This document shows positions 6,456 through 60,439 of a DNA stretch of 64,000 nt, piece after piece (positions within the stretch are counted from its first letter, which is position 1; the number at the start of each line of letters is the position of its first letter). Under the pieces are notes generated by a model. It ran no database searches. It was not told where the DNA came from and was given only the letters and a program-made list of their open reading frames with translations. A program made the position numbers and the translations under genes. Source of the stretch: Labia minor (Eukaryota; Arthropoda; Insecta; Dermaptera; Spongiphoridae); the NCBI GenBank assembly GCA_963082975.1, contig OY720348.1, positions 68,783,719 through 68,847,718 of the forward strand. The letters are read 5' to 3'.

Positions 6456-6468
6456 ATATATAATAAGT

Positions 6469-8794: not shown

Positions 8795-9425
8795 CTGGAG
8801 TGTCTTCCCTCGATCATCTCGCAAATGTGAATTTGATTAATTAACACATATTATATTTAAATTAAATTTAATTAATTATAAATTATAAATTAAACTTAAT
8901 AAATAAATAATATTTATTAAACCAGCGCGTGTCTGGCTCTTTGTTGATGGCACCACAACACGTGCTGGCGCGTGATTGGCAGTTTAAAAAATTAATTCCG
9001 GTTTCTTGTGTCCTAAAATAATATTTAAATTAAATTTATTAATTTTAAATTATAAATTAAAATTACTAAAAAAATATTAAACCAGCGTATGTTTGGCTCT
9101 TTGTTGATTGCACCACAGAACGTGTTGGCGGGTGATTGTCAGTTTAAAAAATTTAAAAAATTAATTCCGGTACTTTCAGCGATTCAATCAAGCTGAAATT
9201 CTATATATAGCAGTTTTATACAATTTTTAATCATGTGAAAAACTATCAAACATATCTCTTTATTTTTAAGGTCAGTTTAGGGAAACAAAATGAAAACGTG
9301 GTAGCTAATGACCGTCTTCCAAAGAGCTACATTTCTCAAAAGTTGAGAGAAAACAACGAATTTTAAATAATGCCCGTGTACCAAATTTCAATTATTCTAG
9401 CTCAAACCGTTTTGAAGTAGGTCTG
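8795..9425 (-). mobile_element. HINE-A element, 5'-truncated
   Basis: It begins with the HINE-A 3' end in reverse complement (CTGGAGTGTC...CATCTCGCA). It then has an A+T-rich stretch, the TTGTTGATGGCACCA block (present twice because of an internal duplication, near 8,942 and 9,101), the TTTCAGCGATTCAATC block and the GCTACATTTCTCAAAAG block. It stops in the CTCAAACCGTTTT block before the microsatellite. Non-coding. Confidence 0.65.
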
Positions 9426-9529
9426 ACCCCCCCCCCCCGCCAGTGAATTTAGTAATATTCCCAGACCTTCCCATAATCTTCTTAAAACAATATTTTAAGT
9501 AATTAAAGAATAATTATTTTTAAGCATTA

Positions 9530-9920
9530 ATCGACGGCTCTTTGTTGATGACACCAAGTCACGAGTTGGCGCGTGATGGGCAGTCAACGTGTTAAATAAT
9601 GTAAGAAATTATAGTTCCGGTACTTTCAGCAATTCAATCAAACTGAAATTCTATATATAGCAGTTTTATACGATTTTTAATCATGTGAAAAACTATCAAA
9701 CATCTATCTTTATTTTTAAGATCACTTCAGAGGAAAAAAAAATGAAAACGTGGTAGGTAATGACCCTCTTCCGAATGAGCTACATTTCTCAAAAGTTGAT
9801 CGAAAACTATAAATTTTGAATAATGCTCATGTACCAAATTTGATGATTCTAGCTCAAACCGTTTTTGTGTAATCTTGTCTACATACATACATACACACAC
9901 ACACACACAGATAGTAAAAA
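9530..9920 (-). mobile_element. HINE-A element, lacking the 3' end and part of the 5' end
   Basis: It runs from the TTGTTGATGACACCA block through TTTCAGCAATTCAATC and CTCAAACCG to an (AC)n microsatellite (about 9,893-9,909) and ends GATAGTAAAAA, the 5' terminus with its inner part deleted. A (CAA)n tract follows (about 9,930-9,952). Confidence 0.65.
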
Positions 9921-17920: not shown

Positions 17921-18154
17921 GGAGTAAGATGGACAGAAAATTTATTTTATCTTGTTATAATAGTACAAAATGTAACATTATAGAGTTTTTGAAAAGAAAA
18001 ATCAATTTTATTATTCATTATCTGGAGAATTCATATAATTTGAGACTATTTCATACCTGCCTAGTTTGCAAACTTTAGATTTCAAATAGACTAGGTCAAT
18101 TACTATGAGGTTACACTATGATTTTTCTTATATACTCCATTAAGTTGTAGTATC

Positions 18155-18495
18155 TGGTTCACCGAGCCGCCGCTCAAATAATTTAAATTTAAAAGAACAT
18201 AAATTAAAAAAAAAATAGTAATAAAATATACAAACTTTAAACGTACTTATTAATGCACTAAAAGACAAAAGTATGGCCTGTGGATATAATATAATATATA
18301 TTTCGTAATTTTATTTCAAGCTGTATACGCCTATTTGGACACACAATGGACGGACGGACAGACAGAAGGACAGACATCATGATAAAAATAGAATTTCTAA
18401 TAACAAAATGGATGATTTGTGGAAATATGTAAAAATCTCCACATGTGAAACTTGGTGTGAAAACAATACCTTCCCTTCCTATCGTCAGTCGATAA
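18155..18495 (-). mobile_element. HINE-B/C chimera
   Basis: The low-coordinate end is the HINE-B 3' terminus in reverse complement (GGTTCACCGAGCCGCCGCTC, 18,156-18,175). It is followed by the TATGGCCTGTGG block. It then passes into the HINE-C 5' half with the GGAC-type microsatellite (about 18,350-18,375), CTCCACATGTGAAA and CCTATCGTCAGTCGAT. This shows that B and C share a 5' half and differ in their 3' half. Non-coding. Confidence 0.6.
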
Positions 18496-18736
18496 AAATG
18501 TAATTTGTCGGTAGCAGCGCCATCTAACAATTATAAGAGTAAAAACACATAAGGATTCCGGAAGTCAAATTTGCGTGTCACCCATCTGGTTCCTATCAAA
18601 AAGACAAATATTTGCTTGTTATTTTAATTGTAAATCAAAATCCAAATTTAAAACGTTTATATCACAGACCATCTGATTTAATTTACTTATTATCTAGTAT
18701 TTATTTTATAATTGATAATACATCGATCAATTAAAA

Positions 18737-18782
18737 ATGGATCTTGATTCCCAAGAAGACACAAAATATCCAATATATATAG
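18737..18782 (+). CDS. Zinc-finger gene, exon 1 (coding part)
   Basis: The first coding exon starts with ATG at 18,737 in a good animal context (A at -3, G at +4) and encodes 15 residues (MDLDSQEDTKYPIYI) plus the first base of a glycine codon. The donor AG|GTTAGT follows at 18,783. Without splicing the frame ends at TAG within two codons. The intron is 18,783-18,952 (170 nt) and ends in a pyrimidine tract and TAG. The joint restores GGT (Gly16) in phase 1 and continues directly into a Zn-finger reading frame. The exon is predicted from sequence only. Confidence 0.75.
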
Positions 18783-18952
18783 GTTAGTTTTTATTTCTAT
18801 GTATGTTCATCTAAAGTAATGTTAATTGTCACTAAAACTATTTTTTTTTAATATTATTTGTGATGGTATGATTCCTTAAATTGAATTATAAAATAAAAGT
18901 TAGATATATAAAAATATAATCATTTAAAATAACTAAACAATTCTTTTTTTAG

Positions 18953-20184
18953 GTCCTCTCTATCCTTGTGTATATTGCCATACCAATTTTATAAGCGAGG
19001 AATTTTTATGTAAACATCTAAAAAAATGTTTTCATAAAAAAATATTTTCCATTTTCAAAAATGATCTAAAACTCAAAAAGGATACTAGAGACGAAAAATT
19101 TAAAGAAGAAATTGATTCAAACCATATTGATGATAGACGTTTTCAATGTAATTTTTGTGAAAAGAAATATAATCAGAAATCACATTTAAAAACACATTTA
19201 CTAATTCATACAGGAGAAAAACCTTTTGAATGTAAATATTGTGAAAAGAAATTTAATAAGAAATCAAATTTAAAAGTACATTTACTAATTCATACAGGAG
19301 AAAAACCTTTTGAATGTAATTATTGTCAAAAGAGATTTAGACAGAAATCTGATTTAACTAAACATTTAATAATTCATACAGGAGAAAAACCCTTTGAATG
19401 TAATTATTGTGAAAAGAAATTTAATCACAAATCACATTTAAAAACACATTTACTAATTCATACAGGAGAAAAACCCTTTGAGTGTAATTATTGTAAAAAG
19501 AAATTTATTCAGAAATCAACGTTAAATACACATTTATTAATTCATTCAGGAGAAAAACCGTTTGAATGTATTTATTGTAAAAAGAAATTTAATATTAAAT
19601 CAAATTTAGATCGACATTTATTAATTCATTCAGGAGAAAAATCTTTTGAATGTAATTATTGTGAAAAGAAATTTACTCTGAAAGCAAATTTAAAAGTACA
19701 TTTATTAATTCATACAGGAGAAAAACATTTTGAATGTAATTATTGTGAAAAGAAATTTAATATAAAATCAAATTTATATCAACATTTATTAATTCATACA
19801 GGAGAAAAACCTTTTGAATGTAATTATTGTGAAAAGAAATTTAATCACAAATCACATTTAAAAACACATTTACTAATTCATACAGGAGAAAAACATTTTG
19901 AATGTAATTATTGTGAAAAGAAATTTAATCAGAAATCAAATTTATATAAACATTTATTAATTCATACAGGAGAAAAACCCTTTGAATGTAATTATTGTGA
20001 AAAGAAATTTAATATAAAATCAAATTTATATCAACATTTATTAATTCATACAGGAGAAAAACCTTTTGAATGTAATTATTGTGAAAAGAAATTTAATCAT
20101 AAATCAAGTTTGAAAAAACATTTATTAATTCATTCAGGAAAAAACCTTTTGAATGTAATTATTGTAAAAAGAAATTTACTCTGA
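18953..20184 (+). CDS. Tandem C2H2 zinc-finger protein, exon 2
   Basis: This exon supplies residues 16-425. An atypical C2HC finger comes first (C21, C24, H37, C41), then a lysine-rich spacer (44-78). Twelve classical fingers of 28 residues follow (79-409), each F-x-C-x2-C-x12-H-x4-H joined by TGEKP-type linkers (variants SGEKP, SGEKS, TGEKH). Such arrays bind DNA and usually act as nuclear transcription factors; the target is unknown. Helix position 3 is mostly Asn or His, hinting at A/G-containing sites (inference). No KRAB, BTB or ZAD domain is visible, though the short N-terminal C2HC finger may have a comparable role. No ATG lies in frame in this exon, which supports splicing from 18,737. 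A one-base deletion in the linker after finger 12 (near 20,139) shifts the frame to TGA at 20,182; a further finger lies past it out of frame. AATAAA occurs near 20,304. Confidence 0.85.
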
Positions 20185-20660
20185 AAGCAAATTTAAAAAC
20201 ATTTATTAAAACATAATGTTTGAAAAATAGGCTTAATAATGAAATCAACATTTTTTTAAAATAAATTTTATATACTTTATAGCACAAATTGTAGCTTTAA
20301 TCAATAAAAATCTGATTTATTTAATTAGTATTTATATTTACTATCTTATTTCCTCTATTAATAAATACATTTTTACTAATTATCTATTACATTTAAGAAT
20401 CCTATCATTAATTTATTTATTATTTATTTATCCAAATCTAAAATATGTCTGATTCTTTCATTTTACTAATCTATAATTGTAAATAAAAAAGAAACTTTAT
20501 AAAAATCCTTATTTCAATTCTTTAACGAGAAAAGCATTTTGAATTTAATTTAATCATATTTAAATTGTCATTTACTAATTCATACAGGTAAAAAGTTTTT
20601 GGAGTGAAATTATTGTAAATAGAAAATTAATAATATTTAACATTTATTAATACATACTCG
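20185..20660 (+). pseudogene. Decayed extra zinc-finger units
   Basis: Up to about 20,215 an out-of-frame unit still reads PFECNYCKKKFTLKANLK but lacks its histidines. At 20,525-20,656 two more relics occur: GEKHFEFN-like, then HLLIHTGKK, a stop, NYCK. They align with the linker and cysteine parts of the finger repeat. They suggest that the array once extended further 3' and was lost by frameshift and decay. Between them (20,220-20,520) only A+T-rich DNA is seen. Confidence 0.6.
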
Positions 20661-21185: not shown

Positions 21186-21540
21186 TCCGACGATATGAAG
21201 GGAAAGGTTATTTTCACACCAAATTTCACATGAGGAGATTTTTTACATATTTCCACGAATCATGCACTTTGTATTGGTTTTATCCTCGGGAAAAATCATC
21301 TTGATTGGTTTTTTCTTAATTTAAAATTATATGACGTCACTCAGCCCTTCATGACGTCACAGCCAGCACCTCCTTATATATTATAAATAAAATTAAATTA
21401 AAAATATTTATGTTATGTCCACATCTGTTTTTTATTGCATTAATAGATACATTTAAATTATTTGAAATTCTTTCTGTAGCTGGAAATTAATTTATTTCAA
21501 ACCGTCGGTCGGTTTTGGGCCTGGCCACAGGTCAACTGAT
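21186..21540 (+). mobile_element. HINE-C element, internally deleted
   Basis: The 5' end is CCGACGATATGAAGGG; the microsatellite and CCGGAAGT part are deleted. The 3' end has the subterminal CGTCGGTCGGT, then GGGCCTGGCCACAGGTC, the terminal hairpin. Two GACGTCA boxes lie near 21,332 and 21,352. Confidence 0.65.
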
Positions 21541-21549
21541 TTTTAATGT

Positions 21550-22698: not shown

Positions 22699-23310
22699 CT
22701 GGTTCACCGAGCCGCGGTCCGGTACTTTAAAAAAATGATTCCCTATGAACTTTTGAATATTGAAGATTAAGATTATTATTTACATAAAATAAATTAACGA
22801 CAAAATATAGGAAACAATTTCAAATCATTTAAAAGAACATAAATTAAAAAAATCAGGATTGTCTCCATCCACTATCTCGCAATTTGTATTCGAATAATTA
22901 ACATATATGATATTTAAATTAAATTTAATTAATTAAATAAATAAATTTAATAAATAATTTAATAAATAATTAAATTAATAAATAATATATAACATATATG
23001 TTTATTTTTACGGTCACTTTAGAGGAAAAAAAATCAAAACGTTGTAGGTAATGACCCTCTTCTGGTTGAGCTACATTTCTTAAAAGTTGAGAGAAAACTA
23101 CAAATTTTGAATAATTCCCATGTATCAAATTTTATGATTCTAGCTCAAACCGTTTTTCCGTAATATTGTCTACATACATAAACACATACACACATTTTTC
23201 TCAACCTTAGTGAAAATGATTCAGGAACCTTCAAAACGTATAAAAACATCAAAATCTCAACATCGAAAATTTTCGTGATCGCAATACTATCTCTCGCGAG
23301 ATAGTAAAAA
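22699..23310 (-). mobile_element. HINE-B fragment joined to HINE-A element
   Basis: 22,699-22,850 is the HINE-B 3' part (GGTTCACCGAGCCGCGG). At 22,853 it abuts the HINE-A 3' end (GTCTCCATCCACTATCTCGC). HINE-A continues through GTAGGTAATGACCC, CTCAAACCGTTTTT and a short CA microsatellite to its 5' end, a palindrome ACTATCTC-TCGC-GAGATAGT (23,287-23,306). The B piece lost its 5' part at the junction. Confidence 0.65.
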
Positions 23311-24149: not shown

Positions 24150-24950
24150 ATCAATTCCGGTTTCCGGATATATACCAAAATGTGAAATTTGGTGTGAAAA
24201 CAATAGCTTCCCTTTCTATCGCGTAGCGGTCGGTAATACTACTAGATAATCATACTAGATAATCAAATACTATGTCAAATACTATGTCAATCTGTCACTA
24301 ATACAAGATAATCAAAATGTTGCTCTTTAAAAAGCTTTATAAACCTTATTAAAGTCTTGAATTCTCTAAATTTAAATAATTAAATAAACAAGTTAATAAA
24401 TTTAGAAGTACATAATTAAATATATACCACTTCCGGTTTCCAGATATACACCAAAAGTTGATGAATTCGTACTACTGATGAATTTAGTAAATATAGGAAA
24501 TTTTATCAAAATCCATTTAGCTGCTCAAGCTCTACACGTATATACAGAGACACAATGAACAGATGGACAGATATAATGCTAAAAATAGTTTATTTCTGTT
24601 AACAAAGTGCATGATTCGTGGAGATATGTAAAAATCTCCTCATGTGAAATTTGGTCTGAAAATAACCCTTCCCTTCCTATCGTCGTTCGGTAATACTACC
24701 ACTTCCGGTTTCCGGATATACACCAAAAGTTGATGAATTCGTACTACTGATGAATTTAGTAAATATAGGAAATTTTATCAAAATCCGTTTAGCTGCTCAA
24801 GCTCTACGAGTATATACAGAGACACAATGGACAGATGGACAGATATAATGCTAAAAATAGTTTTTTTCTGTTAACAAAATGCATGATTCGTGGAGATATG
24901 TAAAAATTTGATGTGAAAACAATATCTTCCATTCCTAAAGTTGGTTGGGA
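24150..24950 (-). mobile_element. HINE-C 5' parts, three copies, two in tandem
   Basis: 24,150-24,240 is a short piece. 24,419-24,700 and 24,702-24,950 are near-identical tandem copies, each running from CTTCCGGTTTCC through GTTGATGAATTCGTACTACT, TATACAGAGACACAATG and GATTCGTGGAGATATG to the CGTCGGTCGG-like 5' end. None has the HINE-C 3' hairpin. Confidence 0.65.
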
Positions 24951-25119
24951 AAAACAATATATACATACAACACATTCAAAAAAAAACTTATGTTGTAGTT
25001 TTGTTTTTAATATTTATTTCAAAAACAATTTATTGATAATTTTTTTTTGTTTGTGTCGCACATGTTCAAAAGATTGTCGGCATACTTAAAATTTCAAATG
25101 GGTTGTGATTGATAGATGA

Positions 25120-25450: not shown

Positions 25451-25720
25451 ATGAAGAAATCTGTCCCATAAAGGAACTAATTGACGATTATTATTTGAAA
25501 AGAAATGCAAGGAAACACAAAAAACAAAAATAAAAAACAAAACAAAAGAAAAAGAAAAACAAGACGGATCAAATGATCAAATAAGAAAGAAAAAAGAATT
25601 TATTAAGATATTACGCCTCTCATGAACAAAATAAATAAGTATTAATACAACAAACGAAAATTTCAAATGGGTGGTCTTAGGCACCTTTGAAAAACAAAAA
25701 AAAAAAAAAGAAAATAGTAT
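25450..25720. other. A-rich sequence, nothing recognised
   Basis: A-rich low-complexity DNA (about 25,500-25,720). Confidence 0.5.
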
Positions 25721-26209
25721 GACCTGTGGCCAGGCGCAGAACCGACCGACGGTTTGAAATAAATTAATTTACACCAATTTCAAATAATTGAAATGTATCT
25801 ATTAATACAATAAAAAACAGATATGGATATTACATAAAAAATTTTAATTTTATTTTATTTATAATATATAAGGAGGCGCTGGCTGTGACGTCATGAAGGG
25901 TTGAGTAACGTCTATTAATTTTAAATTAAGAAAAAACTAACAAAGATGATTTTTCTCGAGGATAAAACCAATACAAAGTGCATGATTCGTGGTGATATGT
26001 AAAAAATCTCCTCATGTGAAATTTGGTGTGAAAATAACCCTTCCCTTCCTCTCTTCGATCGGTAATACTACCACTTCCGGTTTCCGGATATACACCAAAA
26101 GTTGATCAATTCATCATACTGATGCATTAAGTAAAGATACCATATTTCATCAAAATCCGTTGAGCCGTTCAAGCTGTACATGTCTATCCCTTACTATAGT
26201 CGGTCGGTA
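25721..26209 (-). mobile_element. HINE-C element with both ends
   Basis: On the minus strand it runs from ACCGACCGAC (26,198-26,209) to CGTCGGTCGGT (complement of 25,743-25,753) and the slightly damaged terminal hairpin (25,721-25,736). Internal landmarks are CCGGAAGTGG, the CTCCACGAATCATGCA-type block and a GTGACGTCA box. The GGAC microsatellite is deleted. Confidence 0.7.
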
Positions 26210-28644: not shown

Positions 28645-30060
28645 AGATATGTGTTCTTATACGTTTCTACGTTTTGAAGGTCCCTGAGTCATTTTCAGTA
28701 AGGTTGAAAAAAATGTGTGTGTGTGTGTGTGTGGATGTAGACAAGATTACGCAAAAACGGTTTGAGCTAGAATAATGAAATTTGGTACGTGGGCATTATT
28801 CAAAATTCGTAATTGTCTATCAACTTTTCAGAAATGTAGCTCAACCCGAAGAGGACCATTACCTACCACGTTTTCATTTATTTTTCCTCTAAACCAGTGA
28901 TTATCAACCACTGTGCGGCGGCACTTTAGTGTGCCGCGAGATTACGAGGCTCTTAAACTTTTTTTTCTAAATTTTTTCAATTTGATTCTAAAAAAAAAGG
29001 TAAACCGTTTTTGGGACGACTTTTTTTTAATATATGGTAAACTTTGACACTTATCTTTTTCTTTGTGTGCAGCCAAATTTTTAAACCGTTAAAAGTGTGC
29101 CGCGGTAAAAAAAAGGTTGAGAATCACTGCTCTAAACTGTCCGTAAAAATAAAGATATATGCTTGATACTTGATTCACATGATTAAAAATTGTGTAAAAC
29201 TGCTAGATATAGAATTTCAGCTTGATTGAATCGCTGAAAGTACCAGAATTCATTTTTTAAATTTTTTAAACACATTGCCTGCTAATCACGCGCCAGCACG
29301 TGACGTGGGGTCATCAACAAAACGCCAAACAAATTTTTTAAATTTTTAAATTTTGACTTATAAATGAAGGTAAATTTAAATATTATATATGTTTTATTAT
29401 GTTATATATATTAATTAATTTAATTTAATAACAATTATACTGCAAAATTAATTAATTAATCCAAATTAATTATACTTAATTTATATAATTAATTAAATTT
29501 AATTTAAATATAATATATATGTTAATTAATCGAATTCAAATTTGCGAGATACTAGAGTGGAGACACTCCAGATTTTTTTTTATATTTATTGTTGATTTCT
29601 ATATATATTTATTTCTTTTAATTATAATAATTGAAGAAATTAATTAATTTAATTTAATAACAATAGTATACTGCAAAATTAATATTTTTTAATTAATTAA
29701 TTAATCCAAATTAATTATACTTAATTTATATAATTAATTAAATTTAATTTAAATATAATATATATGTTAATTAATCGAATTCAAATTTGCGAGATAGTCG
29801 ACTGGAGACACTCCAGATTTTTTTTTATATTTATTGTTGATTTCTATTTCTATTTATTTCTTTTAATTATAATAATTGAAGAAATTAATTAATTTAATTT
29901 AATAACAATAGTATAAGGCAAGATTAATTTTTTTTTAAAAATTAATTAATTAATCCAAATTAATTATACTTAATTTATATAAATAATTAAATTAATATAA
30001 TATATGTGTTAATTAATCGAATTCAAATTTGCGAGATAGTCGAGTGGAGACACTCCAGTT
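28645..30060 (+). mobile_element. HINE-A element with triplicated 3' end and nested hAT MITE
   Basis: It runs from a damaged 5' end through (GT)n (about 28,715-28,731), CGCAAAAACGGTTTGAGCT and the A+T-rich 3' half to GCGAGATACTAGAGTGGAGACACTCCAG-type ends. The last about 240 bp occur three times in tandem (GCGAGAT at 29,544, 29,789 and 30,031). The tandem unit includes downstream flank (TTCTTTTAATTATAATAATT). A hAT MITE is inserted at 28,895. Confidence 0.7.
28895..29129. mobile_element. hAT-type MITE with perfect 8-bp target duplication
   Basis: Ends are CAGTGATTATCAACC and its near-complement GGTTGAGAATCACTG. The 8-bp target duplication CTCTAAAC (28,887-28,894 and 29,130-29,137) is exact. 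The interior has GTGTGCCGCG and its complementary partner near each end. A second copy lies at 61,902. Confidence 0.9.
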
Positions 30061-30139
30061 TTATTTTATATTTATTTCTTTTAATTATAATAATTGAAGA
30101 GGATTGGATAATCGATTTAGAAAAGTTTTTCGAAATTTA

Positions 30140-31683: not shown

Positions 31684-32012
31684 ATAATAAAAAACGCGGG
31701 ATAGCGGTTCCTTAAATACAAAATATTGTAAAAAAAATAAAATTAAAAATATTTATTTTAATAATATTTTGTAATCAAATTACGAAATATATATTATGTT
31801 ATATCCACAGGCCATACTTTTCTGCCTTTCAGTACATTAAGGGCTGTATGTTTAATGACTATTTTTTTTATTTACGTTCTTTTACATGATGAAATTGTTT
31901 AATATATTTTGTCATTTATGTATTTTAAATAATAATCTTAATCTTAAAGATTCATAGTTCATAAAGAATAAATTTTTTTAAAATACCGAGCCGCCGCTCG
32001 GTGAACCAGGTT
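31684..32012 (+). mobile_element. HINE-B element
   Basis: Contains CCACAGGCCATACTTTTC, the CATTTATGTATTTTAAATAAT block and the terminal hairpin ACCGAGC-CGCC-GCTCGGT (31,985-32,002). The 5' end is unclear. Confidence 0.65.
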
Positions 32013-32095
32013 CTTTTAATTGTACATAATAAACATAAATGTTAGAATGGCATTCAAGCAAAATGCTTATAAACCCCTTCGAATTCTCAATTTTT

Positions 32096-32740
32096 ACCGA
32101 CCGACGATAGTAAGGGAGGTATTGTTTTCACACCAAATTTCACATGTGGAGATTTTTACATATCTCCACGAATCATGCATTTCCTAAACAGAAAAAAGTA
32201 TTTTTAGCATGATGTCTGTCCGTCCGTCCGTCTGTCCGTCTGTCCGTCCGTATAGATGTGTACAGCCTGAACGGCTCAACCGATTTTGATGAAATTTGGT
32301 ATATTTACTTAATGCATCAGTGGGATGAATTGATCAACTTTTGGTGCAATTCCGGAAACCGGAAGTGGTAGTATTAGCTATCGACGATAGGAAGGGAAGG
32401 GTTATTTTCACACCAAATTTCACATGAGGAGATTTTTTTATATGCCACCACGAATTATGCACTTTGTATTGGTTTTATCCTCGAGAAAAATCATATTTAT
32501 TAGTTTTTTCTTGATTTAAAATTATATGACGTCATCCAGCCATTCATGACGTCACAGCCTGGTCTTGCATATATATTATAAATAAAATAAAATTAAAAAT
32601 GTTTATATTTATTATTTATGTATCCATATCTGTGTTTTATTACATTGATAGATATATTAAAATTATTTGAAATTGTTTCTGTAGCTGGAAATTAATTTAC
32701 TTCAAACCGTCGGTCGGTTCGGACCTGGCCACAGGTCAAC
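32096..32740 (+). mobile_element. HINE-C, best full-length copy
   Basis: It starts ACCGACCGACG (32,096-32,106) after a T-run. It contains CTCCACGAATCATGCA, a (CCGT/TCCG)n microsatellite (about 32,214-32,250), ACCGGAAGTGG, a second set of the CACATGAGGAG block and two TGACGTCA boxes. It ends with the exact inverted copy of the start, CGTCGGTCGGT (32,708-32,718), and terminal hairpin GACCTG-GCCA-CAGGTC (32,722-32,737). This copy defines the HINE architecture. It encodes no protein; mobilisation in trans by a Helentron is inferred. Confidence 0.75.
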
Positions 32741-32768
32741 TTATTCATTTTATAACAACGTCACTGGA

Positions 32769-34550: not shown

Positions 34551-34819
34551 TTTTACTATCTCGCCAGATTGCGCGGTTACGATAATTTTCGATATTGAGA
34601 TTCTGATTGTTTTATACGTTTTGCAGGTTCCTGATTCATTTTCAATAAGGTTGAGAAAAATGTCTGTGTGTGTGTGTATGTTTGTAGAAAAGGTTTGAGC
34701 TAGAATAATGAAATTTTGTACACGGGCATTATTCAAAATTTGTAGTTTTCTATCAACTTCTTAGAAATGTAGCTCATTCGGAAGGGAACCATAACTTACC
34801 ACGTTTTCATTTTATTTTT
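34551..34819 (+). mobile_element. HINE-A, 5' half, interrupted by hAT copy 2
   Basis: It starts TTTTTACTATCTCGCCAGAT, has (GT)n near 34,667 and continues through GGTTTGAGCTAGAATAATG to CCACGTTTTCATTTTATTTTT. The hAT sequence begins at 34,820. The matching 3' half resumes at 39,239, about 110 bp of HINE-A being missing between. Confidence 0.75.
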
Positions 34820-36870
34820 AGAAGAATTAAAAACTATTATTCTAATGCAAGATGATGATAAAAAGTTAAAAATCTATATTTTATAAAATTAAATTTTTAT
34901 ATGAATCTTTTAGAAAATTTATTAAACTTCATTTAAATTAATAGGAATAAATAAATTTACAATTAATTCTTGATTGAGGGATGATTTCGGTGGTGACGCC
35001 GATCAACGTCTTCGACTGGAAAGGGAATGCGATCACAGGCAGGCAGGCAGGCCAGGAGGGAGGGTGGGTGGGGGTGAGGTGAAGTGGCGGAGGGGTCAAC
35101 ATGGCGGCAAATCTTTTTAATCTGTCAAAATACAATAATTAATATTTAATTAACCGTAAAATTATATAATAGTAGAGTACTCGCTACCCGGGATATTATT
35201 TTTAAATTTATTAAAAAATAATTTTAGATCATAATCATCCTATATGTTATTACATCTTTTATATACCATATATTTATATTTTTCTTATCCCGATAATTTA
35301 TATACTTTTTATCCAAGGGCTTCCCTTTCTCAATACACCGTTTAGTCCTAGACTACTCTACTCTATCCAAATTTCGCCTCTACCTCCCCCTCCTCTCATA
35401 TCCATTCCATTCCAAAATGAAGTATTTATTTTAATTGAATGAAAAATAACAGCCCGTCCATTACAATTTGGTACACCGATATTATTCACAGTTTGTAGAT
35501 TTCTATCAAAATTTCGTCAAAATCGGTTAACCGGAAGTGGTACTTTACCTACACTGGTTGCGTTTACCTTTCAAGTAAAGTACCAGTTTGCTTCGAGATA
35601 TTTGCTTCCTATTTTGTATGTAATACTTAAAAATATGAAAAAAATTCAGATACCAAATTTCATCATGATCTGACTACCGGAAGTGACATTTTACCTATAC
35701 AAGTAGCGTTAGGTGTAAATTATAAATATATATAATAGTGTTAAACCATTTTACTTTCTAATTTAAATTAATTAGTTTGTTTATTTTTATTGTTGTTAAA
35801 ACATAATAATAACCTAATTACCTATTTATATGCGGGAAAGTCTAGGGGAGGACACTCCCGAATTTTTTTAATAAATGATTGACTAGATATTATAATAAGA
35901 AAGGTAATATTTTCAAAATTAGTGATAGAATCGATTTGAAATCTAAAAAGGGATGATTTGAAAAAATAAGATAAAATAAATAAATAAATATTAATGTATA
36001 TGTATATATATATATATATATTAATTTTCTTTTGTATTTTTATTATCTAAGGAATTAATTAATTAACATAATACTAATAAAATTAATTAATATTCATAAT
36101 ATAATTAATTTAAATAATATTATATTAACATTTATAATTATATTATTAAAAATCTAAAGAATAAAATTATAAAAAATAAACAAATTGAAAGATTTGAACT
36201 CAGACAAAAGAATTACTAGTCATCGCCCAATCCGGAGCGACTGTTTAATCAACTATTAAAAACATAGGAAAGAAATTCACTTGAAGGCTACGAAAATTCA
36301 GGCCATAAGCAATACATGGCAAAGACTTTATTCATTAAATATTGATTAAACAAAGAAAAATGATCATGGAAATAGTTATAATATAAGAAATACAAGAATC
36401 AAAAATAAACTTGTATTGAGAGAAGAGATATGCAAAGAATAATCATTTAATATAATTAATCAAAAGATTCGACGTCATCAACATGGCAGCCGAAATCACA
36501 TTGCATCTGTCAAAATTCAATAATTAATATTTAATTAAGGAAGCATCATAAAATTATATAATGCTAGTGAAAATGAATCTACATTGAATAACGAGTATTT
36601 TGATATGCGTTTTATATATTGTTATCAGAAAATGTTTATTTCAAGTGGAGACATGATACCAAATATAAATTAATTATAATTTTCATTTATATTTCACTAA
36701 AAATCCATTTTATTGAAAATCTGGCGAAAATTCTGTTGTATCTTTTTACTTTTATTCATTTTTTATGAAATTTTGTTATTAATTTGTATAAACTGAATCC
36801 AATTGAATAGAAGTGTTTCTGCTAATTTTCCAAATCGTTCTATAAATATGAGTTCCAAGTTTCTACTAAT

Positions 36871-37315
36871 ATGAAGCCTAGGAGAGGTGGGTCCTCTCAG
36901 AGGCACATAAGACATGTCTCACTCGTGAATATACAGGGTTTTGCTAGTTGGAGAATTGACGTAACCTGGATATATTTGAATAAACCCCCCGAAGGGGGGT
37001 TTATTCAAATATATATGGGAGACTCTAAAGAGTCTCCTATAAGAGACAAGATTTCAATTTTTTTTCTTTTTAATGAAGCTATGCTAGGTATTCTCCTTCA
37101 TCCAAATAAATTTGATTTTTTGAATGATCAGGGGAGGGGGGGAGAGTAAGAGTAAGGGAATGGATGGAAAGGCGTCAATGGGTAAAGGACATGATTCCTC
37201 GAGGTAGATGAGGGATTTAGAAGAAATCATGAGCTCACGTGAGGGCAGGGATGCCAATCCCTGAAATAGAATTCTTTTCAACTGGGTTTATAGAAAAGAA
37301 TCTACTCGCTACCCG
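36871..37315 (+). repeat. E-type repeat in hAT copy 2, hairpin loop GAA
   Basis: As at 4,208-4,645, with perfect 21-base arms at 36,970-36,990 and 36,994-37,014 around loop GAA, the reverse complement of the TTC loop in copy 1. The second hairpin is also present. Confidence 0.7.
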
Positions 37316-37954
37316 GGATATTTTTTTTAAATTTATTAAAAAATAATTTTAGATCATAATCATCCTATATGTTATTACATCTTTTATATATACCATATAT
37401 TTATATTTTTCTTATCCCGATAATTTATATACTTTTTATCCAAGGGCTTCCCTTTCTCAATACACCGCGTTTAGTCCTAGACTACTCTACTCTATCCAAA
37501 TTTCGCCTCTACCTCCCCCTCCTCTCATATCCATTCCAAAATAAAGTATTTATTTTAATTGAAGTTATAAATTTAAATGAAAAATAACAGCCCTTCCATT
37601 TACAATTTATTTTTATTTATATTATTATAATAATTAAAACTAACATATCTTTCATATATCTAAGAACATAAATAAATATATTATTGATTTAAACTTTCTA
37701 TATTTTAGTATTTGACTACATAATTAATAATATATAATTTTTTCCCATTTTTTAACACTTTATTACAAACATATTATATATTTTAATGATCAAAAATAAT
37801 ATATATATAAAATATATTTATTTATTATATAATAAATAGATAATTATATTATTATTATATAAGTCAGAAAAAGATATTTAAATAAATTCAATTGAAATAA
37901 AACGATTGTGTCAAGATTCAACATTTTAATTCATACTTGTTTGTTCAATCAAAT

Positions 37955-38798
37955 TGAAAGAGAACACAATGAACTGTTACTTCATACTTCATGCTACATT
38001 TTCAGCAAGATTTAGAGAACTTATGCCACAAATAACCTCATATTTACAATCTAAAGGTGATTAATATCCGCAATTAAATGATCAAGAATGGCTTCTCGAT
38101 CTTGCTTTTTTCTGCGATGTTAATGAAAAATTAAACCAATTAAATCAGCAGCTACAGGGTAAAGGTACAACAATAATAGATATGATTGGCATTTTGAAGT
38201 CATTTAAGGAAAAATTAAATATGCTTGCAATGCAACTAAAGCGTCGTGATTTAAAACACTTTCGAAATCTGGCAGATGAATCTAAAAATAATAAGACTGT
38301 TGCTTACGACTGTTGCTTGCTGATGTTATTGGAATGCTTCTAAATGAGTTTGATAGAGGATTTCTCAAACTAAGTGAACTTGAAGATATTGCCTGTTTTT
38401 TATCTTACCCATTTAATGACATCGACGTTGAAAGTCTTGCTCAGAAACTTCACAATTTTCTTAATACTACAAATATAGCAGAATTAGAAGAAGAAATACT
38501 AAATATTAAATGCGATATAAATCTAAAATCAATGGTTTCAGATAGCAATTTTTGGAAACTAATAAGCAAAGATAAATATCCAAATATTTGGACAATGGTT
38601 GCTCGTTTCAATTCCTTCTTTGGCTCCACATATTTATGTAAATCCGCATTTTCTTATATGAATGCGATCAAAACAAAACCTCGATCGCAAATAACGGATC
38701 TACATTTAGAGTCATGCTTAAGAATTGCTTTAAGTTCATATGAGCCAAATTTTGAGAAACTTGCTGCTCTTATGCAATGCCAGGTTTCATCCAAATAA
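37955..38798 (+). pseudogene. hAT transposase C-terminal part, copy 2 (longer)
   Basis: The frame from 38,014 reads RELMPQITSYLQSKGD, stop, YPQLNDQEWLLDLAFFCDVN, then KLNQLNQQLQGKG and FKEKLNMLAMQLKRRDLKHF, the conserved W..DLAF...N.KLN.LN..LQG block of GTF2IRD2-like hAT transposases. A frameshift within a 13-bp imperfect duplication (CTGTTGCTTACGA / CTGTTGCTTGCTG, near 38,298-38,322) precedes the dimerisation domain frame (38,313-38,798). That frame ends as in copy 1 but has Gly16 for Arg and Lys110 for Glu in the STYLCES motif. Upstream, HNELLLHTS is visible near 37,975. Non-functional. Confidence 0.85.
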
Positions 38799-39238
38799 AC
38801 ATTGTATGCTTAAAATTTGTTTTGTTCGTATTTATTTCTTAACATTGTATTTTTTAAAATTTTAACAAATATTGTTAGAATTCATAAAATAAAAAATATA
38901 TCGTCGGCTTAGATTGAAAACCTGTTGAAAACTCATATTCAGCACATTTTGCATAACTTTTTTAAAAAGCATAAATTTTTTGCTTGTCAAGTGATTTCAA
39001 TTAAATAGGTTCATAATAGCGGTGTTTCATAGCCAATATAAGTTGTTTTTCTCTTTCTAATAGTGTCAAAATGTAATTATTGACCAAAAGTGAAGGTTTG
39101 CAATTAAAATCGGCGATATAATGACTTCTTTAATTATCTTCTAAAATTTTAAAATTATTTGCCCATATCCATAGTCGACCGGAGACTATATTTTATTCAA
39201 AAAGTAGCCCCTAAAAGCTAAAAGTTTGGCCACACCTG

Positions 39239-39480
39239 ATATATAGAATTTCAGCTTAATTGAATCGCTGAAAGTACCAGAATTAATTTTTTAACACTGC
39301 AAATCTCACGTGCCAACACGTGATGTGGTGCCATCAACAAAGTGCCAAACATACGCTGGTTTAATAAATATTATTTATTAATTTGAATTTATAATTAATT
39401 AAATTTAATTGAAATATAATATATTATGTTATTTAATCCAATTCAAATTGCGAGATAGTCGAGTGGAGACACTCCAGCTA
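39239..39480 (+). mobile_element. HINE-A, 3' half, downstream of hAT copy 2
   Basis: It resumes at ATATATAGAATTTCAGC, passes the GCCATCAACAAAG block, and ends GCGAGATAGTCGAGTGGAGA with ACTCCAG at about 39,478. Pairs with the 5' half at 34,551. Confidence 0.75.
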
Positions 39481-46885: not shown

Positions 46886-46910
46886 CATAATCTATTTTAT
46901 TTTCATTTAT

Positions 46911-47665
46911 TGACTATTATTCTGTGATTTTAATGTTATTTTGATTAAAAATTAATTATTAATTAATATACTTAATTTAATTTAAATTTTTAGTTCCAAA
47001 TTACATATACCTATACTATGTTTCAATAGTATACATTTTGGAGTTATTTTGTCAAATGAAAATCAAAATTTGTCATCAATTTCAGAAATATTCACTAAAT
47101 TAAATAATATTTGGATTAATTATAATATTAAATAAATTATATATATATTATTGACTATTATTCTGTGATTTTAATGTTATTTTGATTAAAAATTAATTAT
47201 TAATTAATTTACTTAATTTAATTTCAATTTTTAATTCCACATACCTATACTATGTTTCAACAGTATACATTTGGGGTTATTTTGTCAAATGAAAATAAAA
47301 ATTTGTCATCAATTTCAGAAATATTCACTAAATTAAATAATATTTTGATTAATTATAATATTAAATAAATTATATATATATATATTATTGACTATTATTC
47401 TGTGATTTTAATGTTATTTTGATTAAAAATTAATTATTAATTAATTTACTTAATTTAATTTAAATTTTTAATTCCACATACCTATACTATGTTTCAACAG
47501 TAAACATTTGGGGTTATTTTGTCAAATGAAAATAAAAATTTGTCATCAATTTCAGAAATATTCACTAAATTAAATAATATTTTGATTAAAAATTAATTTT
47601 TAATTAATTTACTTAATTTAATTTAAATTTTTAATTCAAAATTACATATACCTATACTATGTACC
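46911..47665 (+). repeat. Tandem repeat, about 239-bp unit x 3.1
   Basis: Units start at TGACTATTATTCTGTG (46,911; 47,152; 47,389), with periods of 241 and 237 bp. They share CCTATACTATGTTTCAACAG and TTTGTCATCAATTTCAGAAA. A partial fourth unit begins near 47,580. The difference in period lies partly in a (TA)n tract. Confidence 0.9.
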
Positions 47666-49489: not shown

Positions 49490-49970
49490 ATGCTATTAAA
49501 TAAATAAAAAAATTATTATTTTAAAAATCAATTTAAAAAGATATATATATATATATATATTGTTTTATTAAAACAGTACAATATTATATATAAATATATA
49601 CTATAAAAAGTAGCGGTCTTGGATCAAAAAAATCAAGATAAAGGTTGAAAAAAATCTGTTCTACTGATTATAGAACACCTTTACTCCGCTTGTAAGATGA
49701 AGGTTATTATTTAAAATAAATAAATGACAAAATAGAGGAAACAATTTCAAATTATTTAAAAGAAAATAAATTAAAAAAAATAGACATAAAACATACACCC
49801 CTTAAACGTACGTATTAATGCACTGAATGACAGAAAAGTATGGCCTGTGTATATAACATGATATATATTTGGTAATTAGATTACAAAATATTATTAAAAT
49901 AAATATTTTTAATTTTATTTTATTTATAATCTTTTGTATTTAAGGAAGCGCTGTCCGGCGTTGACCGGCG
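49490..49970. repeat. Inverted duplication, left arm (SINE fragment, TA tract, HINE-B)
   Basis: From ATGCTATTAAAT (49,490) through (TA)n, the SINE body (AGTAGCGGTCTTGGATC, 49,608-49,690) and a minus-strand HINE-B (49,690-49,968), the sequence matches 57,013-56,393 in reverse complement. A block corresponding to about 56,655-56,775 is missing here. Confidence 0.65.
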
Positions 49971-49978
49971 CCTTTTTT

Positions 49979-50368
49979 ACTATCTCGTAAGAGATCACGA
50001 AAATTTTCGATGTTGAGATTTTGATGTATTTATACGTTTTAAAGGTTCCTGAATCATTTTCACTAAGGTTAAGAAAAATGTCTGTGTGTGTTTGTGTATG
50101 TGTGTGTGTGTAGTCAAGATTACGCAAAAACGGTTTGAGCTAGAATGATGAAATTTGGTACATGAGCATTATTCAAAATTCGTAGTTTTCTATCAACTTT
50201 TGAGAAATGTAGCTCAACTGGAAGAGAGTCATTACTTACAACGTTTTGATTTTTACTATCTCGCCAGAGATAGTATTGCGATCACGAAAATTTTCGATGT
50301 TGAGATTTTGATGTTTTTATACGTTTTGAAGGTTCCTGAATCATTTTCACTAAGGTTGAGAAAAATGT

Positions 50369-50401
<33 letters not shown>

Positions 50402-50949
50402 GACAAGATTACGCAAAAACGGTTTGAGCTAGAATGATGAAATTTGGTACATGGACATTATTCAAAATTCATAGTTTTCTATCAACTTTTGAGAAATGAT
50501 ACGGAAAAAGATTACGGAAAAACGGTTTGAGCTAGAATGATGAAATTTGGTACATGAGCATTATTTAAAATTTATAGTTTTCTATCAACTTTTGAGAAAT
50601 GTAGCTCAACCGGAAGAGGGTCATTACCTACAACGTTTTGATTTTTTTTCCTCTAAAGTGACCGTAAAAATAAAGATATATGTTTGATAATTTTTCACAT
50701 GATTAATAATTGTATAAAACTACTATATATAGAATTTCAGCTTGATTGATTCGCTGAAATTACCAGAATTAATTTTTTAACACTGCAAATCTCACGCGCC
50801 AACACGTGACGTGGTGCCATCAACAAAAAGCCAAACATGCGCTGGTTTAATATTTATTATTTATAATTAATTAAATTTAATTTAAATATAATATATTATG
50901 TTATTTAATCCAATTCAAATTGCGAGATGGTCGAGTGGAGACACTCCAG
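49979..50949 (+). mobile_element. Two HINE-A elements in tandem
   Basis: The first (49,979-50,251) stops at the TTTTGATTTTT block. The second (50,254-50,949) is full length with 5' palindrome ACTATCTC-GCCA-GAGATAGT, (GT)n, an internal duplication of the GGTTTGAGCTAGAATGATG block (50,420 and 50,527), and the 3' end GCGAGATGGTCGAGTGGAGA with ACTCCAG. Non-coding. Confidence 0.7.
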
Positions 50950-51284
50950 CTAATTTTTATTATTAACATTTCTATTTTATATCCAACAAGGCTGCACCTA
51001 TACAGATCGATTTTTCTTTATAAATATTATCTATGGTGTGAATTTCAAAAAATCCTTATATATAGGTATATATATATATATACTATTATAATAAGATTAG
51101 ATATATATATAAATTATAAATTAATATAGTTATAATGTAACTATTCTATCTATTTATTGGTACTCAAAAGCTTTAGGCCACAATAAGCACACAATCTCAA
51201 TTGCTTTATATTTGCTTTCAGAATGTCAGTTTATTGAATATTAAACAAATTGGCAGTTGTTAACGCAAAATATTCAGAACTAAA

Positions 51285-51730
51285 CAATAAAAAAACTGTT
51301 AAGAATTGCAAATTTGATATTTTACTCTGTAGCCTGAAAATAATGGTGAAAATTTTGAAAATAGTAGTTATTCTAGATTCTTCTTTACATTCTATTTATA
51401 CGAGTACAAGCCCATTTGGCTATTATTATTATAAAACATACACCCCTTAAACGTACGTATTAATGCACCGAATGACAGAAAAGTATGCCCTGTGGATAGA
51501 ACATAATATATATTTCATAATTGGATTACAAAATATTATTAAAATAAATATTTTGAATTTTATTTTATTTGTATTCTTTAAAAAAACTGTTATCGAATTG
51601 CTAATTTGATATTTTAATCTGTATCCTGAAAATATGGTGCAAATTTTGAAAATAGTAGTTATTCTAAATTCTTCTTTACATTCTTTTTGGTTATTATTAT
51701 TATTATTATTATTATTTACGAATTTACAAT
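51285..51730. repeat. HINE-B fragment between direct repeats of about 145 bp
   Basis: The segments 51,285-51,440 and 51,583-51,725 are near-identical (GAAAATAGTAGTTATTCTA shared). Between them lies a minus-strand HINE-B piece with CACCCCTTAAACGTACG and AAAGTATGCCCTGTGG (51,425-51,582). Confidence 0.7.
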
Positions 51731-51734
51731 TCAA

Positions 51735-52330
51735 TGGTTTGAGGGAATCAAACAGAAGATATAGGCATCTGTCTCTTTATAAAGGTAACGAAAATTAAAT
51801 TTTTTGATTTCATTAAGATTTTGAATATTGTTTCAAGCAGTATTTCTCAAATTCATTTGAATTTACAGTATTATTTTAATTTTTCTTTTTTCATTAACTA
51901 TTCTGTTTATGTTTTCGAAATCAAAATTCATTGAATCTTATGGACAAGAAAAAAAAGTGATGAGACAAGGTTTTGTTTAATGACAGTGTACATGTGTTGT
52001 TTTAATTTTTTTTTTTTTTTTTTTTTAGGTGGACTTTTTTTTGTACTCATGTAGAATGTTGGACAGGTTATTGTTTGACTAGTTTGATATCTTGTAATTA
52101 ACAATTTTTTCTATATTCGTATATACTATCATGATATCTGAGTTAATCTCCAAATTGACACGAATAATCATTAACTTTCATGGTACATACTTTTGGACAA
52201 GTTGATGTTTTTTTTATTGTGAAACATGACAATTGATATCTCTTCATTCTAGTCGGTCTGGCATAAAATTTGAAATAGAAAATTAAATAGAATAAATATG
52301 GATCTATTTTTATTTAAATGGTGATATTTC
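51735..52330. other. A+T-rich DNA with T-tract
   Basis: T-run of about 20 near 52,008. No gene recognised. Confidence 0.5.
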
Positions 52331-52334
52331 AAAA

Positions 52335-52550
52335 CAAATACTGGCCAGCTGGAAGGGAAGCGGTCTTTTGTTAAAATTTGCAACGAGAGATGGATTAGGA
52401 ACGGGCGGCCGTGTGAAAAGGGACCGGGACTACGGCACTATGTAAATATTTTGCTAGTATGGAGCTTGGACAAAAGACTAACGGCAATCGGTGCAGTCCG
52501 CTACAATCAAGTAGTTTGTTTGCAAATATTTGGAAACCTACACCTACCTT
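52335..52550. promoter_or_regulatory. Candidate conserved island
   Basis: Complex GC-richer block with GGATTAGGAACGGGCGGCC and no coding domain, ending at a T-run (52,551-52,576). An (AAAT)n tract lies near 52,665-52,694. Role inferred. Confidence 0.3.
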
Positions 52551-52662
52551 TTTTTTTTTTTTTTTTTTTTTTTTTTGTTTTCATTAAATTCATTTTAGAA
52601 TTTGAAAAGGAAGCAAGGATTACAACAGCCAAAGATATCCAATTGAATAGTTTCCGTTTTGA

Positions 52663-52693
<31 letters not shown>

Positions 52694-52933
52694 ATATAAA
52701 ATATCCTTAGTAAAGCAAATACACAATTCGGGTCTCTGTGACATTAATGGCGGGAAGTGGATTTTTTCACTTTGTTAGAGCGACAAATTTTAGGGTATGG
52801 TTGGTTTAATAGGCTTATTACAACCTTTTGGGGATGGGCGGAGACTATTTTTTCAGGAAAATTATTTTTCATTTTAATTCTTTCTTTCTTTTTCATTAAA
52901 TTTATTATATGTTTTTTGTATAGTATGAATTTT

Positions 52934-53799
52934 TACTATCTAGTCATTGCGATCGAGATTTTTATGTTTTTATACGTTTCAAGGTTCCTGAATCATTTTC
53001 ACTACGGTTGAGAAAAAGGTCTCTGTGTGTGTGTGTGTGTATGTAGACAAGATTACACAAAAACGGTTTGAGTCATAAAATTTGGTACATGGGCATTATT
53101 CAAAATTTGTAGTTTTGAGAAATCAAGATCAACCGGAAGTGGGTCATTACCTACCAAGTTTTGATTTTTTCATCTAAAGTGACCGTAAAAATAAAGCTCT
53201 ATGTTTGATAGTTTTTAACATGATTAAAAAAAAAAAAATTGTATAAAACTACTATACATAGAATTTCAGCATGATTGAATCGCTGAAAGTACCGGAATTA
53301 ATTTTTTTGAATTTTAACTTAAAAAATGTAGGTAAAGGTTTTAAATTTATATTTAATATATGTAGACAAGATTACTCAAAAACGGTTTGAGCTAGAATCA
53401 TGAAATTTGGTATACGCGCATTAGTCAAAATTTGTAGTTTTCTATTAACTTTTGAGAAATGTAGCTCAACCGGAGAGGGTTCATTACCTACCACGTTTTG
53501 ATTTTTTTTCCTCTAAAGTGACCGTAAAAATAAAGATCTATGTTTGATAGTTTTACACATAATTAAAAATTGTATAAAACTGCTATATATAGAATTTCAG
53601 CTTGATTGAATCGCTGAAAGTACCAGAAATAACTTTTTAACACTGCAAATCACGCGCCAGCACGAGCGTGATGCTATCAACAAAGAACCAAACACGCGCT
53701 GGTTTAATAAATATTATTAATTAAATTTAATTGAAATATAATATATTATGTTATTTAATCCAATTCAAATTGCGAGATAGTCGAGTGAAGACACTCCAG
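52934..53799 (+). mobile_element. Two partial HINE-A elements in tandem
   Basis: The first (52,934-53,320) has a damaged 5' end and loses its 3' end. The second (53,362-53,799) starts at GTAGACAAGATTACTC and has the full 3' end with AGTCGAGTGAAGACACTCCAG-type hairpin. Confidence 0.7.
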
Positions 53800-54304
53800 C
53801 TTTTTTATATTATAATTTGGAATGTATGATTTTTGGCAGATGGACATGATTCTTGGATGTGGTTTTTGGCAGCAGCAACCACATTCCTCCACCCTTCCTA
53901 TAACTAGATAATGATTCCAATAAAGATGTGTCGCAGGAATTATTTAAGCCGGGAAGGACTCTTATTCATTAATTTTTAATGATTTATTAATAAATATACA
54001 ATACAATTATGGAAAATTAAGTTATAATTCTAATAAGAAATCAAAATATTTTTGAAAATATTATTAGTTAAATTTAGGTACTATCCTCAAAAATAATTTT
54101 AATGATCAATCTATTTGTATTAAATCTTTATATATATATATATATATAGTATTTTATTTATAAAAGAACCCTTATTTTATTTCATATATCAAAAATACAA
54201 TCAAATTATTTCATGAAAATTTGTTTAGATTCAATAGAATGGAAATATTTTTTTTTCTTTCAAAGGGTGAAATTAAGTGTGAAAACAATCCTGAATCAAA
54301 AAAA

Positions 54305-54335
<31 letters not shown>

Positions 54336-54540
54336 CCAACCAACCATTTCAAGATTTGAGTATTGAAAGAATTGATTTCTTAGCAATCTATAGAAGGGTT
54401 GTTTTTCTTTCCATTTTCATTTGCTTTGCCTGAATCCGAGAGGGGAGCAAGGAACGTTTCTGCTTTCAACTTTTTAAGAATAGATTATTATTAGTTGGTT
54501 ACATTTGCAAAGTGTTGGCTAATCAACCCTCCCCCCTGAC
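53800..54540. other. A+T-rich DNA with TA microsatellites
   Basis: (TA)n near 54,130 and 54,310-54,335. No gene recognised. Confidence 0.5.
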
Positions 54541-54579
54541 CCCACCCCTTCCCACCCATTCTGATTCGACAATTGGGCA

Positions 54580-55260
54580 TCCACTTTGAATGAACGAGGA
54601 TTGTTCTTTTCGGGAAACGAGATAATTTTAATTGTAAATATTTTCGCCCGCCTTTTTTTTTTTTTTGGAACCGTTTGAAAAGATTAAATCTTGTGATTAT
54701 TTAAGGCGGTCCGCTTGTAAAGCGATTTATTCAGGGGCTGGCATAAATTAGCAATGGTGAGCTTTCACAGCGAACCTGATGAGTTTATTGATAGAAATAT
54801 TTATCGAGATCTCAAGGGTTGCTTTCCATGGCATATGCTTTCAGAAGGGGAGTGGATTTTAGGGGAGAGTTCTTTATTCGGAGTTCCCGCTCCGTAAAGA
54901 CCAGTTAATCAGAAATTTGACACCCAAGTTTTCAGCGGTCGCAGAAACGCACAATTTAATCGTCATTTTAATAGCATGGAGGGTACGATGATGGTTATCA
55001 GTGGAGATTTGGAGCCAGATAAGCCGATAGGATGAGGAGGGCGGTGATGTGACCACAACAATCATCAGATAGCGGAACAAAAATCCATGTTAGCATTCTG
55101 AGGTTCTCGGTTGTCTGGAAGGGCAAATGAATCGTTGGGATTCAATTGGAAATGGATAGGCTTCCACTTTGCATTGGGAACCGTTTGAAATTACCAATCC
55201 ATATCAAACTGACATCATAGCTTTTGCTGGATTGTTATTTTGTTTTTGTTTGTTGAGAAG
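54580..55260. promoter_or_regulatory. Candidate conserved regulatory island, longest in the window
   Basis: About 650 bp of complex, repeat-free sequence. It contains GCATAAATTAGCAATGGTG, AGTTTATTGATAGAAATATT and GGGAACCGTTTGAAAT-type blocks, the last similar to GGAACCGTTTGAAAAG near 54,667. No domain-coding frame. Regulatory role inferred. Confidence 0.4.
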
Positions 55261-55411
55261 GATTACGATTTCTTAAAACCATCCCCAAATTTTGAAATGA
55301 AAGGAATAAGGAAAGTTGGAGTTGAATTTGAATTATAATAAGCAGTAATAATTATGAGAGATATTATGTAGTAGAGGTTCATAGTACTGTGAATTAAAGA
55401 AAAAAAATTAG

Positions 55412-56000
55412 CTGGAGGGTCTCCACTCGACTATCTCGCAATTTGATTTGGATTAAATAACATAATATATTATATTTAAATTAAATTGAATTAATTATAA
55501 ATTATAAATTAAAATTAATAAATAATATTTATTAAACCAGCGCATGTTTGGCCCTTTGTTGATGGCACCACGTCACGTGTTGGCGCGTGAGATTTGCAGT
55601 GTTAAAAAATTAATTCTGGTACTTTCAGCGATTCAATCAAGCTGAAATTCTATATATAGCATTTTTATACAATTTTTAATCATGTGAAAAATTATCAAAC
55701 ATATATGTTTATTTTTACGGTCACTTTAGAGGAAAAAAAAATCAAAACGTTGTAGGTAAGGACCCTCTTCCGGTTGAGCTACATTTCTCAGAAGTTGATA
55801 GAAAAATATGAATTTGGAATAATGCCCATGTACCAAATTTCATCATTCTAGCTCAAACCGTTTTTGCGTAATCTTGGTTACATACATACACACATTCACA
55901 CACACACAGACATTTTTCTCAACCTTAGTGAAAATGATTCAGGAACCTTCAAAACGTATAATCTTCTTAGGTATTATAGAAGTATGTCTCTGATTGAAAA
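55412..56000 (-). mobile_element. HINE-A element with alternative 5' end
   Basis: The 3' terminus (CTGGAGGGTCTCCACTCGAC) starts at 55,412. The element runs to CCTTCAAAACGTATAATCTT, then CTTAGGTATTATAGAAGTAT instead of the usual palindromic 5' end. The copy at 63,565 has exactly the same alternative end. Confidence 0.7.
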
Positions 56001-56127
56001 TATTTTTTAAAATAAATAAAATTTTGTATTAAAATTTTAGTACATATTATAAAATATTATTAGAAGGTAAATAATATTTTTATATGAAATCTTAGATATA
56101 GATAATCAAAGTAAAAGAGTTGAGATG

Positions 56128-56167
<40 letters not shown>

Positions 56168-56926: not shown

Positions 56927-56964
<38 letters not shown>

Positions 56965-59942: not shown

Positions 59943-59944
59943 AT

Positions 59945-60435: not shown

Positions 60436-60439
60436 AAAT

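Follow-up and report, generated by a model that had tools for sequence, protein, structure and literature searches.

Three repeat families with the layout of Helentron-derived interspersed elements in the genome of the earwig Labia minor

A group of short repeats raises the question of whether they belong to the non-autonomous elements derived from Helentrons (HINEs, DINE-1 type), and which proteins could move them. The window analysed here is a stretch of 64,000 nucleotides from Labia minor (C10:68783719-68847718) in an assembly of 604 Mb and 71 contigs. The G+C content of the window is 28%, and self-comparison revealed that it is dense in repeats. The original prediction had placed four families, HINE-A to HINE-D, in this class: A, C and D by a 5' motif that recurs inverted close to the 3' end, a terminal hairpin and an internal microsatellite, and HINE-B by the hairpin.

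Layout and ends of families A, C and D

The predicted anatomy was borne out for A, C and D by motif search and by a blind scan. The subterminal inverted repeats, which in HINEs measure about 11-15 bp, are 11 bp long in C (21 aligned copies), 10 bp in A and 12 bp in D (motif search and blind scan); the 5' motif usually has a T directly before it, and a palindrome is present downstream of the 3' inverted motif in all three. With up to one mismatch, the A motif occurred 17 times in the window against 0.90 expected, a count reached by none of 100 shuffles, and the C motif 7 times against 0.06 expected. The D motif has 4 exact sites in the window; at up to two mismatches (6 against 3.5 expected, reached by 18 of 100 shuffles) it is not above chance. 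The blind scan covered 264 kb, that is the window and 100 kb on either side, and searched for TTT followed by a 10-mer that recurs as its reverse complement 100-2500 bp further along, with a hairpin within the next 32 nt. The 16 matches comprised seven of C (two of them having one 3' end in common), three of A, one of D, two pairing inverted C copies, two for one other site and a single further one, while ten Markov controls gave 0, 0, 1, 1, 0, 0, 0, 0, 1 and 0. The layout is far above chance in this 264 kb scan.

The ends of the elements were expected to coincide with the motifs, and for C they do so sharply in an alignment of 21 copies (the 20 best matches and the window copy). The element begins with ACCG after a T and ends with the palindrome and AACTTATT, which is intact in 20 of the 21 copies and is followed by mixed bases. 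In the 5' flank, TT at -2/-1 and T at -5 are invariant, and T is found at -4 in 19 copies and at -3 in 16. The alignment fixes the ends, therefore the full-length C element of the window spans 32096-32745 (plus strand); the interval 32096-32740, originally given for several families, does hold a C element, but C only, and its true end is 32745. The features of this element, all on the plus strand, are the 5' subterminal repeat ACCGACCGACG at 32096-32106, preceded by 5 T (motif search and 21-copy alignment), a GTCC/GTCT microsatellite at 32214-32251 (tandem-repeat search), a diverged second copy of the left block at 32374-32464 (82% to 32094-32182), the 3' subterminal inverted repeat CGTCGGTCGGT at 32708-32718 (motif search and alignment), which lies 27 bp inside the element end, and the palindrome GACCTG-GCCA-CAGGTC with the terminal AACTTATT at 32722-32745 (alignment and folding).

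The genome search for C, in which 40 of 978 candidates were scored, gave 42 matches, and 38 of these, the window copy included, span query positions 1-644/645 at 93-100% identity. There are at least 38 near-full-length copies of C in the 604 Mb genome, a lower bound because of the number of candidates scored. The 21 aligned copies diverge by 0.6-2.9% (mean 1.7%) from their majority consensus, a sample that favours young copies because these were chosen as best matches. Further C sequences of the window are an element at 25714-26208 (minus strand, 3' end approximate), a 3' part at 21188-21541 (plus) and tandem pieces of the left part at 24425-24954 (minus; self-comparison). The predicted internal microsatellite is present in the C element at 32096, in A copies and in the D element at 7550, but the element at 25714-26208 has lost it through an internal deletion.

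Two full-length copies of A lie on the plus strand, one at 57879-58480 with the 5' flank CATT and no T-run, the other at 50255-50955 with an internal block of about 103 bp doubled and with its end, CTAATT, taken by analogy with CTTATT. An A 5' part at 49979-50254 (plus) stands directly before the latter, and this pair sits in a T-run of a repeat designated X. Both ends are also present in a short copy at 22854-23305 (minus) and in a copy at 52935-53799 (plus) with a duplicated inner part and a degenerate 5' motif. A tandem series of A 3' ends, in units of about 245 bp, occupies 29410-30076 (plus). The halves of one further A element, at 34555-34819 and 39239-39477 (both plus), are separated by a hAT-related repeat at 34820-39241; this repeat, of about 4.5 kb, has a second copy at 1696-6306, the two being 94-97% alike in long blocks. 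Two A copies whose 5' flanks differ have 55 identical bases in their 3' flanks (58480-58537 and 59421-59479), explained perhaps by an inverted duplication or by read-through beyond the 3' end. Family D is represented by a full-length element at 6465-7550 (minus) and by a 3' part at 35465-35862 (plus), of which 2783-3180 (plus) is a duplicated copy.

At the 5' end of A, DNA folding backed a stem of 8 bp, with 2 and 0 of 200 shuffles folding as well. The 3' palindromes only modestly beat shuffles, 23 (A), 9 (C) and 8 (D) of 200 being as good, and those of A and D fold weakly and have competing folds. For A the alternative hairpin is GAGTG-GAGA-CACTC, and for D the hairpin originally quoted (GGGAG-GACA-CTCCC) was not upheld, as the best fold is another structure. 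An inverted repeat beside the 5' motif, a feature of DINE-1 (PMC2374699) though not of every HINE, is clear in A, partial in D by folding and not evident by eye in C.

Target sites in T-runs

The flanks of the elements were rich in T. At least five T precede 10 of the 11 5' ends in the window (background 1.0-1.4%), and a run of at least four T occurs in the next 12 nt after 14 of 18 3' ends, some of which belong to duplicated copies (background 15%). TT stands before the motif in all 12 A 5' ends listed in the 264 kb, and at least five T in 10 of them; five of the 12 overlap the window set.

The left and right flanks of 35 elements (the 21 C copies and 14 A, C and D elements of the 264 kb) were joined and compared with the genome. 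A junction-spanning match was obtained for 11, and for 24 there was none. One C copy, L016, lies inside another C with TT on its left and TTTT on its right, and its site is T6 in 20 matching C sequences, one being its own inner C. The comparison of occupied with empty sites was clean or nearly so for L016, for C153324 (T6 against T6), for L023 (T5 against T5 in three of the four shown), for L028 (T8 against T8, with some upstream gaps), for C-43362 (T8 against T7) and for A108402 (T10 against T8-10 when CTAATT is taken as the A end). L025 also fits (T8 against 8-9). The matches of L022, L027 and C-47749 were weak or short, and that of L011 has a gap in the left arm. Among the 11 elements joined within the window alone, only the A pair at 49979-50955 gave an empty site: the copies of repeat X at 31.7 and 56.4 kb span the site uninterrupted, and the occupied site is richer in T than these empty copies.

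The paralogous empty sites agree with the expected insertion between T and T for C and for one or two A sites, and no non-T bases were duplicated. The data support insertion of C and A in T-runs without duplication of non-T bases, a duplication of T alone being indistinguishable within a T-run; the same ambiguity is stated for HINEs in the published description (PMC4067079). For D, neither the joined flanks gave a clean empty site nor did a 127 bp repeat (6328-6454 and 7776-7901) around the element at 6465-7550, where the homology stops soon after the junction and is unconvincing. When the D copies at 3148 and 35830 were tried as D sequences lacking the inner C, their right side did not align and no clean junction resulted.

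Rep proteins and the class of the elements

The window has 14 open frames of at least 110 aa, none of them wholly inside an A, C or D element; one, at 7470-7829, overlaps the D end. The elements are without coding capacity. No Rep or helicase was found in the window by Pfam in 10 of the 14 frames and in stretches read with X at stops, the latter scan covering the window outside 1-9913, 18148-20659, 49691-51149, 52931-60689 and 63201-64000 and, for 51150-52930, only the plus strand. The Pfam matches obtained were hAT, mariner-like and C2H2, with a few below threshold.

A profile search with PF14214 (Helitron_like_N) revealed 104 matching stretches in the genome. In the published description the motif GLPH is a sign of Helitrons and GSPH of Helentrons (PMC4067079). 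The 12 Rep loci returned first all have GLPH, and five further places, picked for long frames and partial profile matches, all have GSPH, with open frames of 1785, 1648, 1754, 2181 and 1489 aa; this typing covers 12 and 5 of the 104 matches. The GSPH places are C9:34498524, C2:71968315, C1:85855789, C1:47868109 and C2:66560054, and matches of similar score lie at C6:19230938 and C9:23424027. By these signatures, the genome holds predicted Rep frames of both the Helentron and the Helitron type. Six of the Helitron-type loci (L055-L060) are 99.9% mutually identical over 3.56 kb, with open frames of 1537-1652 aa, and therefore point to very recent spread of a canonical Helitron. Within the 3.5 kb covered at each of the 12 Helitron-type Rep loci, the motifs of A, C and D were absent at up to one mismatch, and no autonomous element carrying the ends of these families was seen. 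At C5:46739897-46792979, broken Rep matches of equal score recur at regular spacings of 9.8 kb and 5.7 kb, which suggests a defunct Helitron-like element arrayed in tandem.

Canonical Helitrons begin with TC, end with CTRR and insert between A and T. Movement of A, C and D as non-autonomous derivatives of such elements by the GLPH-type Reps is quite unlikely, even though all 12 of the Rep loci returned first are of this type and the six almost identical ones were recently active, because C starts with ACC, ends with TTATT and sits in T-runs, and neither TC...CTRR ends nor A/T insertion were found; in the description of PMC4067079, moreover, subterminal inverted repeats are given for HINEs and not for canonical Helitrons. 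Even less probable, and indeed very hard to sustain, is that the families are MITEs, which are DNA elements that move by cut-and-paste, carry inverted repeats and duplicate a TT target, a reading once proposed for DINE-1 according to PMC2374699. The elements are short, non-coding and dispersed and do carry inverted repeats, T-runs make a duplication of T alone difficult to see, and the site of the A pair within repeat X is richer in T than its empty copies. Against these points, the 3' repeat of C is internal by 27 bp and followed by the palindrome, no duplication of non-T bases was seen, and the number of T is constant in C153324, L016 and L028 and in most comparisons of L023.

Families A, C and D are very probably non-autonomous Helentron-derived interspersed elements. 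The original assignment is largely supported by the motif-set ends of C, the T-run insertion of C and A and the Helentron-type Reps, and the anatomy, the dispersed copies and the lack of a long inner frame agree with it. In a rolling-circle mode of movement, a Rep/helicase(/endonuclease) protein encoded at some other genomic locus would cut beside the T-flanked 5' end and peel off one strand of the element. Replication would halt at the 3' subterminal repeat, the palindrome and the CTTATT-like end, the palindrome presumably acting as a stop signal, and the single strand would be joined into a T-run without copying of the target. Particular proteins may be paired with particular families.

The same anatomy and target behaviour are described for HINEs and DINE-1 (PMC4067079, PMC2374699, PMC7492417), and A, C and D look like further members of this known kind. 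The HINEs and Helentrons of mite, Culex and Drosophila (Thomas et al. 2014, PMC4067079) are described with subterminal inverted repeats, a 3' palindrome, a T-rich unmodified target, a variable number of flanking T, no coding capacity and a Helentron-type Rep in the genome, as here; unlike them, the present families have motif letters other than those quoted there, their partner element is putative, and one family carries another. DINE-1 of Drosophila (Yang and Barbash 2008, PMC2374699) likewise has a GTCY-rich microsatellite in the left block, central repeats, a 3' subterminal repeat followed by a stem-loop and insertion at TT, but its 5' repeats are given as ATACCC or similar, whereas here they are ACTATCTCGC, ACCGACCGACG and ACTTTCCCGCAT. 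The Cg_HINE elements of the Pacific oyster (PMC7492417) are similar in having several families per genome, a tetranucleotide microsatellite (GTCY and others) and oligo-T targets without duplication; they were found, as reported there, through satellite-like central arrays, whereas tandem inner blocks occur here in some copies only. Because one genome combines three HINE families with Reps of both types, and at least one of the families has clean empty sites, the pairing of terminal signals with proteins becomes testable.

Kinship, composites and neighbouring repeats

The left blocks of A, C and D are alike in order, the microsatellite being followed by a stretch with GAAATTTGGTA or a close variant. 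The parts before and after the microsatellite were compared by local alignment against 500 dinucleotide shuffles, using A at 50255 and 57879, C at 32096 and 7095, and D. After the microsatellite, no shuffle reached the score for A50255 with C32096, C7095 or D, for A57879 with D or for C7095 with D; one did for C32096 with D, 11 for A57879 with C32096 and 43 for A57879 with C7095. Before it, the counts were 0 for A50255 with C32096 or D, for A57879 with D and for C32096 with D, 2 for C7095 with D, 6 for A57879 with C32096, 36 for A50255 with C7095 and 153 for A57879 with C7095. The kinship of the left block is therefore strong between A and D, good between C and D and uneven between A and C. 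Among the ends listed, CTTATT follows the palindrome in 9 of 10 for C, 7 of 33 for A (5 more have CTAATT) and 2 of 4 for D; the C copy at 25714, outside that listing, reads CTATT. Different terminal signals had been proposed for each family, which holds for the motifs and palindromes, but the left blocks are related and some ends have CTTATT in common.

A tentative explanation, for which the odds are somewhat unfavourable, is that the three families descend from a single old lineage in which the left block and the CTTATT-like end persisted. Subterminal repeat and palindrome would have changed in concert, so that each such pair suits a different Helentron protein of this genome, and D would have taken in C and spread as a composite of two HINEs. 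The D element at 6465-7550 contains a 3'-truncated C (about 6560-7095), and another full D, which lies upstream of the window at a distance of about 62 kb, holds a 3'-truncated C at identical inner junctions with different outer flanks. The composite thus occurs at two loci, and the 3' part at 35465-35862 has no C inside. We read this as D having probably taken in a C and afterwards moved as one unit; alternatively, a larger region may have been duplicated and have changed since. Such a composite illustrates how HINE families may turn mosaic. Beyond this and the pairing of signals with proteins, the finding on A, C and D is one of repeat annotation.

HINE-B could not be established as a further HINE and its identity is uncertain. 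A repeat at about 31693-32002 with the palindrome ACCGAGC-CGCC-GCTCGGT is the best candidate, and it was rejected as a full HINE as no subterminal inverted copy was detected. In two copies of this repeat, one at 18493 and one located 99.5 kb before the window, a C-like left block is joined to it behind a common upstream repeat, and these copies may be chimeras; a C-like left block joined to repeat X was mapped at 18315-18493 (minus). A repeat ending in GCCGACAAATTACATTTTT precedes the C-like 5' motif at six places in the 264 kb, including 18493 and 84255 (both minus); four of the six continue as C-like left block, and two diverge after about 25 bases.

Exact motif patterns gave no matches in collections of viral contigs and genome contigs, and Rfam gave none. 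In a literature text search, 81 papers contained one or more of five motif strings, the titles of the 20 listed having no relation to transposons, and the core motif strings were absent. From this text search the families are not claimed as unpublished. The window also has a tandem array at 46907-47589 (237 bp unit, 2.9 copies, 95% matches), with no tie to the HINEs, and a C2H2 zinc-finger frame of 415 aa at 18937-20184 that has an 84 bp repeat unit in 12.8 copies.
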